Part shown: positions 1-29,534 of the stretch, piece by piece
How positions within the stretch are numbered: position 1 is the first letter of the stretch
Layout: every line of letters starts with the position of its first letter
Assembly (NCBI GenBank): GCA_003142535.1
Contig: PLMQ01000055.1
Location: forward strand, 65,835-98,994
Direction: 5' to 3'
DNA from: Syntrophaceae bacterium
Lineage (GTDB): Bacteria > Desulfobacterota > Syntrophia > Syntrophales > Smithellaceae
Length of the DNA stretch: 33,160 nt
Position numbers and translations under genes: made by a program
The notes under the pieces: model-generated
The model's input: only the letters and a program-made list of their open reading frames with translations
Database searches by the model: none
What the model was told of the DNA's origin: nothing

Positions 1-107
1 CACAAGTCGGAATTGGCAAGTTGAATCCGCCTGCGGCGGACTACGCAATTCCGCAAAGCGGAGGATATGAACCACAAAGCTTGCTTTGGGGTTCATATAT
101 GTGATAG
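1..107 (+). repeat. Palindromic intergenic repeat, family 1, copy A (5' truncated by window edge)
   Basis: The motif GGAATTGGCAAGTTGAA at 9-25 is shared with the copies near 18.7, 23.0 and 25.7 kb. It is followed by a TCCGCC/GGCGGA mini-hairpin (26-31 with 35-40, loop TGC), which the other copies lack here. The 3' end is a long hairpin: ATATGAACC (65-73) pairs perfectly with GGTTCATAT (90-98), and inside it CAAAGC (75-80) pairs with GCTTTG (83-88) around a TT loop. No coding capacity is credible. The copy precedes the S1-domain gene. Confidence 0.8.
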
Positions 108-7073: not shown

Positions 7074-7191
7074 GATGTCCTTTAGCTTTCTTCGGCTTCC
7101 TCAACGTATAACCTGAAGGTCACGGGTTAGTAATACGCCTGCGGAGCCTCCTTCTTGCCGCCTCGTTATCCTTTGAAAGCTAAAGGGCATC
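7074..7191. repeat. Palindromic intergenic repeat, family 2, copy A
   Basis: Terminal arms GATGTCCTTTAGCTTTC (7074-7090) and GAAAGCTAAAGGGCATC (7175-7191) are complementary over 17 nt with one T/C difference. The interior carries TCGGCTTCCTCAACGTAT, then ATACGCCTGCGGAGCC and CTTGCCGCCTCGTTATC, shared with the copy at 26.7 kb. It begins 3 nt after the trxB stop and could form the 3' end structure of that mRNA. Confidence 0.8.
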
Positions 7192-7265
7192 ATCTGGGCT
7201 GTCGCCGTTTATCAAATTATTGCGATTAGCACCCAATTAAACTCTGAATAAGGAAATAAAAAATT

Positions 7266-18692: not shown

Positions 18693-18701
18693 TTATTATT
18701 C

Positions 18702-18921
18702 GTGAAACTCCAATTCCCATAACGCAGTGTAGGGAAATTGGTAAGTTGAACAATCTCGCGAAGCGAAGGGTAATGAGACTCAAACTTCAAAAGCGAAGCG
18801 AATTGAAGCTTGTTAGCCGAATTCTCCCGTATAAGCAGGGGTATAATACTCCGCAGCGAGTTTTCGAATGGGTTTCCAAAGCTTGCCTTGGGGTGCGGCG
18901 ATACCCGTGGTTACAAAAAAT
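18702..18921 (+). repeat. Palindromic intergenic repeat, family 1, copy B (expanded, degenerate)
   Basis: It opens with GTGAAACTCCAATTCCC and GGAAATTGGTAAGTTGAAC, as in the copy at 22986, with CCAATT/AATTGG as an inner dyad. It continues with AATCTCGCGAAGCGAAGGG and ends with GCTTGCCTTGGGGTGCGG and ATACCCGTGG. It is about 80 bp longer than the other copies, through an inserted AGCGAAGCGAATTGAAGC segment, and pairs less well. Confidence 0.7.
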
Positions 18922-22943: not shown

Positions 22944-22985
22944 AATTTTTTCTCCTTGGTTTTTTGAAGCAATTTTAATTTTTTA

Positions 22986-23120
22986 GTGAAACTCCAATTC
23001 CGAACGCGAAGCGTATCGGAATTGGTAAGTTGAACAATCCCGCGTAGCGGAGGGTATAATGCCCAGTAACATGCTGCGGAATAAGTTCTCAAAACTTGCT
23101 TTGGGGTTCATACCCGTGAT
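22986..23120 (+). repeat. Palindromic intergenic repeat, family 1, copy C
   Basis: It opens GTGAAACTCCAATTCCGAA and the facing GGAATTGGTAAGTTGAACAA, in which CCAATTCC and GGAATTGG are a perfect 8-bp dyad. CCCGCGTAGCGGAGGGTAT follows, and it ends with CTTGCTTTGGGGTTCATACC. The end stems are GGGTAT and ATACCC. It lies between the acyl-CoA dehydrogenase and the nitroreductase, both on the minus strand. Confidence 0.8.
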
Positions 23121-24936: not shown

Positions 24937-25602
24937 ATGGAATTAGCTGCTGCAATCAGAGAAAGAAGGAGTATTCGTAAATTCAAGCCGCAGGATGTAC
25001 CGAAAAGTATAATTACGGAAATTCTGGAGGAGGCGCGCTGGTCGCCATCTTGGGGTAATACTCAGCCTTGGTACTTATATGTATTGACGGGTAAAACACT
25101 GGCGCGATTTAAAGAAATGAATCTGCAGAAAACGCTGGCTGGTGAGGCTATTTCATCCGATGTACCTATGCTGGAGAATTGGCCTGCCGCCATAAAGGCC
25201 AGATATGTGGAATTGGGTAAAGTCGTTCTAACCGTGCAGGGCATAAAAAGAGAAGATAAGGAAGCACGTGCTGAATATTACCAGAGTATGGTCTCCGCCT
25301 TTGACGCCCCCTGTCTGATTTTTGCCTGTATTGCCCGGGATAATCTAGTCGAATACCAGATGCTGGATATTGGCCTTATCACCCAAACTATCTGTTTGAT
25401 TGCTCATGACAAAGGTCTCGGCACCTGTATAATGGCCGCAGCCGCGCGTTACCCGGCCGAAATAAGAAAGATAACGGCAATTCCCGATGATAAAAGAATT
25501 ATTGCGGGCATCGCTCTGGGCTATCCTGATTTGTCATTTCCTCTTAACAATATCGAACGGGAGAGAGCGAAATTAACTGAATTCGTCCATTGGGTGGAGT
25601 AA
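24937..25602 (+). CDS. Nitroreductase-family flavoprotein (second)
   Basis: A 221-residue FMN flavoprotein. RERRSIRKFKPQDVPKSII and ARWSPSWGNTQPWYLYV bind FMN; the C-terminus has KGLGTCIMAAAARYPAEI and IAGIALGYPD. It is divergent from the decayed XRE-cupin regulator and shares the 129-bp spacer with it. AAAGGAGG precedes the ATG by 6 nt. It is only distantly similar to the nitroreductase at 22374, differing in length and in the middle segment, so it is not a recent duplicate. Substrate unknown. A family 1 repeat starts directly after the stop. Confidence 0.88.
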   Translation: MELAAAIRERRSIRKFKPQDVPKSIITEILEEARWSPSWGNTQPWYLYVLTGKTLARFKEMNLQKTLAGEAISSDVPMLENWPAAIKARYVELGKVVLTVQGIKREDKEARAEYYQSMVSAFDAPCLIFACIARDNLVEYQMLDIGLITQTICLIAHDKGLGTCIMAAAARYPAEIRKITAIPDDKRIIAGIALGYPDLSFPLNNIERERAKLTEFVHWVE

Positions 25603-25603
25603 C

Positions 25604-25731
25604 GGACATAATACCGCAAAGCAAGCTTTCGGTATTATGTCCTCCGCTATGCGGCATTGTTCAACTTGCCAATCCCGATGCGCGAAGCCCTGCATTCGCC
25701 AGGCTTCGCTTTCGGAATTGGAGTTTCACGA
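25604..25731 (-). repeat. Palindromic intergenic repeat, family 1, copy D
   Basis: Inverted relative to the other copies. On the minus strand it reads GTGAAACTCCAATTCC, GGGATTGGCAAGTTGAACAA and GCCGCATAGCGGAGGACAT, then a long hairpin. GGACATAATACCG (25604-25616) pairs perfectly over 13 bp with CGGTATTATGTCC (25630-25642), and inside it AAAGC pairs with GCTTT. It starts 1 nt after the nitroreductase stop. Confidence 0.85.
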
Positions 25732-25738
25732 ATAAACA

Positions 25739-26450: not shown

Positions 26451-26527
26451 TGGTGCCCCTGGCGCGAGTCGAACGCGCGGCACACGGATTAGGAATCCGT
26501 TGCTCTATCCTTCTGAGCTACAGGGGC
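26451..26527 (-). tRNA. tRNA-Arg (anticodon CCT)
   Basis: On the minus strand, acceptor GCCCCTG pairs with CAGGGGC, followed by A and an encoded CCA. The D arm starts TAGCTCAG. The anticodon stem is ACGGA/TCCGT with loop TTCCTAA, giving anticodon CCT (reads AGG). The T arm holds GTTCGACTC. Length is 77 nt with CCA. Confidence 0.96.
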
Positions 26528-26688: not shown

Positions 26689-26812
26689 TACCAATTCTAA
26701 ATCAAAGCGTCTATCTTTGTTAGCAGCGTCGTCGGCTTCCTCAACGTATGTACAATACGCCTCGTCGCCTCCTCCTTGCCGCCTCGATATCATCTCTGAT
26801 TTAGAAATGGTA
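26689..26812. repeat. Palindromic intergenic repeat, family 2, copy B
   Basis: Terminal arms TACCAATTCTAAATCA (26689-26704) and TGATTTAGAAATGGTA (26797-26812) are complementary with one mismatch. The interior has GTCGGCTTCCTCAACGTATG, then AATACGCCTCGTCGCCTCC and TTGCCGCCTCGATATC, matching the copy at 7.1 kb. The arms have a different sequence from that copy. It lies between tRNA-Arg and the 3' end of the formiminotransferase gene. Confidence 0.85.
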
Positions 26813-26826
26813 TTATGTGCTGTAGA

Positions 26827-29368: not shown

Positions 29369-29433
29369 TACCATTTCGCGCTCGAAGGCTAACTTTGTTG
29401 GCTGTGTCGTTATCCTTTGAAAGCGAAAGGGTA
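29369..29433. repeat. Palindromic intergenic repeat, family 2, short copy C
   Basis: Arms TACCATTTCGCGCTCGAAGG (29369-29388) and CCTTTGAAAGCGAAAGGGTA (29414-29433) are complementary at 16 of 20 positions. The inner TCGTTATCCTTTGAAAGC matches the right end of the 7.1-kb copy, and the central core is missing, so this is an internally deleted form. It lies in the smc-ftsY gap. Confidence 0.7.
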
Positions 29434-29534
29434 TTATACAATAATAGTCAGAAACCCACGTGCAGCAGGTAATTAACTGTGACAGTCCGCCCAATTTTTT
29501 ATAACGATTTTTACCGGAAAAGTAAAGAAAGGGA

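Follow-up and report, generated by a model that had tools for sequence, protein, structure and literature searches.

A family of nested hairpin repeats, probably mobile, in a Smithellaceae-type genome and its relatives

Repeat copies in the window and their anatomy

The window analysed here is the whole stretch of 33,160 nucleotides at G000:C5:65835-98994, part of a genome of 2,928,323 bases in 70 contigs. Its transketolase gene is up to 86% identical to those of MAGs named as uncultured delta proteobacterium, Syntrophaceae bacterium, Smithella and Smithellaceae, and the host is probably a member of the Smithellaceae. Four copies of a repeat had been reported from it in a first-pass annotation and all four were present on inspection; their limits are redrawn here from the inferred insertion ends. 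Copy A, a composite element on the forward strand, runs from before position 1 to about 104, its left part being truncated at the window start, where the assembly has an NN gap (L049). It starts within an 18-nt unit (CACAAG) and continues with the 3' arm of hairpin 1, a palindromic 20-nt insert, TCCGCCTGCGGCGGACTACG (26..45, forward strand), placed after TTGAA in the linker, and a right-end stem at 63-100. Copy B (18699..18910, forward strand) is likewise composite and contains a second hairpin module (TAATGAGACTCAAACTTC...) of about 71 nt (18771..18841, forward strand, limits set by eye). Copy C (22983..23119, forward strand), also composite and flanked by two ORFs, carries at 22994..23025 (forward strand) hairpin 1, the region of CCAATTCCGA and TCGGAATTGG, the stem whose covariation has the best support in the family. 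Composite copy D lies on the minus strand (25600..25732) and has a perfect right-end stem of 13 bp (25604..25642, minus strand). All four copies are situated between ORFs and one overlaps a stop codon: if the terminal GTTA of copy D (25603-25600, minus strand) is an altered GTGA end, it would provide the TAA stop (25600-25602) of an upstream ORF (24937-25602) that by eye is nitroreductase-like. A tRNA gene (26454-26527, minus strand) was found by Rfam scan. Assembly NN gaps occur within several elements (L047, L049, L063, L066 and others), including just before the window start, and possibly reflect strain differences in unit number.

The simplest form of the element is about 85 nt long and consists of TT(H)GTGAAACTCC, hairpin 1, AAGTTGAACAAT, a CCGC/GCGG stem, a GGGTAT/ATACCC stem and a final GTGA. 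It had been proposed that the window copies share GTGAAACTCCAATTCC and AAGTTGAACAAT together with a small G+C hairpin; this is so for copies B, C and D, whereas copy A has the 3' half alone and a linker that holds the 20-nt insert. The left boundary is sharp: in 96 first units GTGAAAC is preceded directly by a T-rich flank of consensus TTATTH. The other boundary is sharp too, reading GTGATT in the 78 right ends found. By eye, GTGAAAC.. at one end and ..CCCGTGATT at the other do not form an inverted repeat. When 85 elements were aligned against the 85-nt base form, the variation in length was seen to consist mostly of insertions at a few positions and in set sizes. At base position 30, 18 of the 23 N-free insertions are exactly 18, 36, 54 or 72 nt long (eight, five, four and one cases respectively), and at base position 49 ten of the 14 insertions found among the 85 aligned elements are of 20-21 nt. 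Other inserts are modules of about 70 nt and, within the right-end stem, pieces of 25-26 or about 50 nt. An 18-nt unit, which the first-pass annotation did not mention, is responsible for much of this variation. Second tandem units account for 14 of 110 matches. At tandem 70-nt units the last base equals the flank base in ten of 14 cases, a duplication of 1 nt. Hybrid elements, in which hairpin 1 is joined to the second module, also exist, and in L075 and L092 element parts lie in reverse orientation between the two arms of hairpin 1.

The suggestion that structure is retained by compensating changes holds clearly for hairpin 1 and more weakly for the right-end stem, as judged against shuffles, which ignore the relatedness of copies. 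In 87 distinct insertion-free copies of CCAATTCCGA/TCGGAATTGG from the genome itself and related genomes, 91.7% of cells are paired against a shuffle maximum of 77.8%, and double-change cells number 135, where shuffles average 37.4 and do not exceed 54 and slid pairings give at most 33. Nine of the 10 pairs have some double change, but this count is not diagnostic: up to 9 appear in shuffles and 10 in one slid pairing. The 38-nt class of right-end stem (11 sequences) has ten double-change cells, compared with a shuffle mean of 2.8 and maximum of 7 and at most 2 for slid pairings, with no excess of further pair types. When every right end is included (45 sequences), 87.8% of cells in the outer 6 bp are paired against a shuffle maximum of 87.4%, and the ten double-change cells stand against a shuffle mean of 3.1 and maximum of 8; the same pairing slid by -2 also gives ten, with 58% paired. 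The end stems of copies A and D pair as had been described, around an AAAGC..GCTTT centre, whereas in copy C the outer GGGTAT/ATACCC alone is intact and the middle is interrupted. Folded as single-stranded DNA, copy C (z -4.4), copy D (z -8.1) and the short copy L086 (z -4.7) each beat all 200 shuffles.

Copy number and sites with and without the element

Genome-wide counting excludes chance. At one mismatch or fewer, GTGAAACTCCAATTCC occurs at 210 places in the genome, where base composition predicts 0.07 and the reversed-pattern control gave 0. These roughly 200 copies lie on both strands and are diverged and mosaic; the 79 stretches of the genome taken around the first 100 of the listed places contain 107 copies at up to two mismatches. 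At least one pattern match was found in 23 of the 34 other genomes of the family, the highest number being 67 (G022), so that the whole family ranges from 0 to 210, and some single matches within it may be due to chance. Outside the family one of 24 genomes has a match (L148) and this does not read as an element. Viral contigs gave 11 and 2 exact pattern matches and were set aside: by eye none in the printed stretches was an element, and the two matches to the 18-nt unit have no evident hairpin host. One locus, L127 (G003:C182:71963-74978), holds a simple 91-nt form of the element in three head-to-tail copies, the last cut short, and a composite in which the element lies within a second repeat family is common to L101 (G000) and L152 (G013), which belong to two genera. 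In a crude ORF screen of 70 elements two were seen in frame within reading frames, one HPr-kinase-like (L118, G000:C57:33500-34350) and the other ketoacyl-synthase-like (L109, G000:C54:750-1600).

Evidence for movement of the full element came from three 20-kb stretches of G015 with seven elements that were searched for in relatives of the same genus; five of the elements were aligned. Three of the five correspond to clean gaps of the form YA^T with no target duplication. In element orientation the empty sites read CTTTA^TRTTTG, where the element is absent in G011 and G033; TCA^TTATYCGG, where it is absent in G033 and, together with other changes, in G022; and TTTTTTA^TAACTG, where it is absent in G033. 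At the last of these an element-like sequence occupies the corresponding place in the more distant G022, and the absence from G033 may therefore reflect a loss; the right end of the copy at this site is mutated. A fourth element faces a clean gap in a G033 stretch of 97% identity and needs a slip of 4 nt; the site obeys the rule (TTCA^TTC) only if a TTCA repeat has contracted in the empty genome. For the fifth, the right junction is seen (TTTTTTA^TTC in G011) and the left flank has been replaced. The bases at the resolved sites are a T-rich YA^T in which TTTA, ATCA and TTCA vary. The TTCA repeat at one site was considered as a target duplication and rejected, since no duplication holds across 106 elements: among the 128 flank/right-base comparisons made in each set, which include a few rows from spurious matches, z reached at most 2.5.

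The 18-nt unit, its hosts and its sites

The 18-nt hairpin unit, TAACCTRAAGGTCACAAG, is found well beyond the element. Its 17-nt core, AACCTRAAGGTCACRAG, has 112 exact matches in the genome (control 0), and a wider pattern finds it at 144 places there, in 27 of the 34 other family genomes and in one of 24 others; five of the family genomes that have it (G005, G009, G021, G026 and G032) lack any match to the GTGAAAC pattern. Forty further stretches of the genome were examined, two around Y1 genes and the others around units away from the listed elements. The hosts of the unit include the window's second repeat family, palindromes of the form ATTCCGG..CCGGAAT, CCCGGC..GCCGGG hairpins, the second module of the element and the unit itself, which also occurs in tandem and within its own loop (L260). 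Across these unrelated hosts its ends are nearly constant.

Within the window the core has one match (chance mean 0.01), the unit TAACCTGAAGGTCACGGG at 7109..7126 on the forward strand, inside a copy of the unrelated second family (7089..7193, forward strand, approximate limits). A partial copy of the same host family (26729..26791, forward strand) reads CCTCAACGTA^TGTACAATACGCC and is the empty counterpart. This second family is MITE-like, with a complete copy bounded by ATACCAATTCTAAATC and GATTTAGAAATGGTAT; it occupies three places in the window (7089-7193, about 26690-26815 and 29378-29440) and its core 73 places in the genome. Among 30 distinct copies from these 73 places, ten carry the unit on the strand read, and reading of the copies added four with the unit on the other strand (L361, L364, L372 and L381, automatically labelled 'empty' in two cases and 'other' in two), so that one kind of host hairpin holds the unit in either orientation.

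Independent movement of the 18 nt is supported most strongly by one orthologous site, a single locus (L263) where G033 has exactly 18 additional nucleotides in the loop of a GGATTGT/ACAATCC hairpin. The same site lacks them in G006, where the hairpin is identical, and in G011, where it is one pair shorter; the counterpart in G015 is rearranged and uninformative. A gain in G033 is the simpler reading of the difference. No alignment was obtained to orthologous counterparts of the unit in L269 and L264. The host hairpins of L263, L265, L266 and L269 differ in their stems and have a similar CTACAT-like tail, and are perhaps another structure-conserved REP-like family, of genus g2. Three contigs of G006 (G006:C142, C163 and C173) hold a 47-nt sequence repeated many times at short spacing.

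The sites occupied by the unit show a preference for hairpin loops. One locus was taken from each related genome, giving 20 sites at 19 loci after one further site that lacked a flank was dropped; some hosts recur between genomes and the 20 sites are therefore not fully independent. At 13 of them the 3' arm of a stem of 6 bp or more begins no further than 2 nt from the junction, compared with 2.0% of 10,631 controls; the remaining seven have a shorter 3'-edge stem. With the threshold at 5 bp or more the figures are 16 of 20 and 6.0%, and at the 5' edge a stem of at least 6 bp is present at 4 of 20 (control 1.9%). In the genome itself a stem of 6 bp or longer surrounds 43% of 83 sites, against 8.5% of 2,401 controls, in a set in which many hosts are repeats of one another. 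Some of these sites lie in hybrid or tandem arrays that have no simple flanking stem, and in the second repeat family the unit sits at the other edge of the loop, on a stem of 4 bp. A GCGYA-like sequence precedes many of the junctions in the genome. Minimum-energy folding of 60 nt did not separate sites from controls, either for pairing of at least 4 bp (75 of 87 sites against 74.9% of controls) or for a position within the loop of a hairpin (28 of 87 and 36.8%); a direct stem search was used for the loop test in its place.

Machinery, alternative explanations and related systems

The repeats are best read as non-autonomous mobile DNA rather than as an RNA gene. The first-pass annotation had offered a functional RNA and a folded transposition substrate as alternatives; empty sites, sharp ends and nesting speak for the second, and nothing positive beyond the stems speaks for the first. 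It is probable that the family is mobile DNA assembled from nested mobile hairpins at two levels. At the first, the element of about 85 nt would insert at a T-rich YA^T that is not duplicated, the differences between orthologous sites presumably being gains and not losses. At the second, smaller palindromic units would enter fixed places within the element. Among these the 18-nt hairpin is probably mobile itself and favours the 3' loop edge of many hairpins including its own, and such insertion into its own loop would explain why arrays mostly grow by multiples of 18 nt. Given the compensated stems, the sharp ends without duplication and the use of loops as targets by the small unit, the form that is moved or recognised may well be folded single-stranded DNA, and the enzyme may act in trans. 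More tentatively, and short of an even chance when taken as a whole, we propose that the 18-nt hairpin is independently mobile, that it finds its target by structure (the 3' loop edge) and not by sequence, that neither a Y1/HUH transposase nor a resident reverse transcriptase moves it, and that its repeated self-insertion has produced the hairpin-in-hairpin mosaics.

An association with a REP-type transposase, which had been suggested, is so far not supported. The Y1_Tnp profile has two matches in the genome itself and none in G012 (43 pattern matches) or G015 (26) among the 30 genomes searched, a set that did not take in G022, and at none of the 20 Y1 loci fetched, from more than 60 matches listed in the 30 genomes, do both element ends lie around tnpA. 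An element about 30 nt from a Y1 gene on contig C57 was considered as a sign of a RAYT or Y1 link and set aside, being weak given some 200 copies and two copy-rich genomes without Y1. A search of 34 genomes for the RVT_1 domain, which likewise did not take in copy-rich G022, gave no match in the genome itself (210 copies), G011, G012 or G015. The Y1_Tnp and RVT_1 searches identified no catalyst.

Several other explanations are less likely. The full element may be a miniature of IS200/IS605 type (a PATE) moved by a Y1 TnpA, the 18-mer being a degenerate relative of its ends. Inverted repeats and target duplication are lacking, the element inserts on the 3' side of a short T-rich sequence, and hairpins lie near both ends; all this fits the description in PMC7290912, in which PATEs and other ends-only IS200/IS605 derivatives are non-autonomous, carry hairpins near their ends without inverted repeats or target duplication and have a short fixed 5' target. 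The explanation is nevertheless doubtful given the 20 Y1 loci without flanking element ends, the two copy-rich genomes (G012 and G015) in which Y1 was not detected, and an 18-mer that by eye has no sequence similarity to the ends of the element. Movement through an RNA intermediate, with RNA of the unit or element joined into the hairpin loop of another RNA, reverse transcribed and recombined into the chromosome, would suit the loop targets and the compensatory changes, which fit RNA folding. A route of this kind has reportedly been proposed for the small dispersed repeats (SDRs) of cyanobacteria, which the nesting and the lack of duplication resemble; it is distinctly unlikely here, with no RVT_1 in the host, G011, G012 and G015 (34 genomes searched, G022 outside the set) and with second-family hosts that hold the unit in both orientations. 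Host replication or repair, in which a structure-specific nuclease, of which SbcCD is an example, opens a hairpin at the loop edge and the gap is filled by template switching to an 18-nt hairpin elsewhere, would account for the frequent position of the unit at one loop edge, for the similar GCGYA before many junctions in the genome and for the failure of the Y1 and RVT_1 searches to find a dedicated enzyme. Template switching would be expected to vary the lengths and end points, whereas the ends of the unit are nearly constant across unrelated hosts, and we consider this explanation unlikely.

That the repeats are a functional RNA, terminator or regulator serving the cell is very improbable: the stems covary and the window's four copies occupy spaces between ORFs, in one case with overlap of a stop codon, but near relatives have sites free of copies, some 200 diverged mosaic copies lie on both strands and two elements are in frame within reading frames. 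There is also no Rfam match to the repeats in the window and seven loci, where tRNA alone was found at the gathering score and one sub-threshold match overlaps the tRNA of L072. Gene conversion between existing repeats could by itself shuffle the modules, and the hybrids of hairpin 1 with the second module would be its products. With the 18-mer immobile, this is scarcely credible, since several unrelated hosts carry the unit at positions that are not homologous and there is an orthologous site with a difference of exactly 18 nt.

The nearest precedent is that of the SDRs of Nostoc punctiforme, reportedly described by Elhai and colleagues in 2008 as highly dispersed repeats of 21-27 nt that are nested in themselves and in larger mini-transposons and show compensatory changes in their hairpins. 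Their targets are said to be tandem heptamers or HIP1 sites. The likeness, at the level of description, is in very small size, dispersal, self-nesting and compensatory changes in hairpins. In contrast, the unit here has 18 nt, as seen in arrays and at the orthologous site, against a reported 21-27 nt; the host is of Smithellaceae type and not a cyanobacterium, RVT_1 was not found in its genome, and the target is a hairpin-loop edge in place of the heptamers or HIP1 sites. The paper on these cyanobacterial repeats is cited in PMC3116915. The element resembles PATEs in having hairpins near both ends without inverted repeats or target-site duplication but differs in its small simplest form (about 85 nt), its nested sub-elements and the absence of a matching TnpA among the fetched loci. 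PATEs insert 3' of a fixed tetra- or pentanucleotide; the resolved sites here share a T-rich YA^T, with TTTA, ATCA and TTCA varying. REPINs and their RAYTs are likewise associated with short palindromes in hundreds of copies. However, the GTAG and CGTC tags of REP hairpins, as named in the title of PMC3733652, are by eye absent from the foot of the consensus hairpin, and Y1 was not detected in two copy-rich relatives. Unlike classical MITEs, the element has neither terminal inverted repeats nor target duplication. The two in-frame cases recall, by description, the Rickettsia palindromic elements, which PMC10969869 presents as palindromic repeats in frame within protein genes. Insertion into palindromic units is also found with IS1397-type sequences (a reference in PMC3116915), which share with the 18-nt unit a palindromic repeat as target and differ in that IS1397 is a full insertion sequence and not an 18-nt piece.

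No report of these elements was recognised by title or abstract in the searched literature on Smithella repeats or palindromes and on nested hairpin elements; most subscription papers lay outside this scope and novelty is unproven. To our knowledge an independently mobile 18-nt hairpin would be the smallest such unit reported, and, if mobile alone, it would rank among the smallest jumping DNAs known. The family would add a second example, far removed phylogenetically, of very small mobile hairpins nested in one another; it offers orthologous sites that have and lack them, and its structural target rule is testable. Its spread, from 0 to 210 pattern matches per genome, makes a hunt for the enzyme feasible, and the findings bear on the origin and growth of short bacterial palindromic repeats, on their entry into genes and on how small mobile DNA can be.
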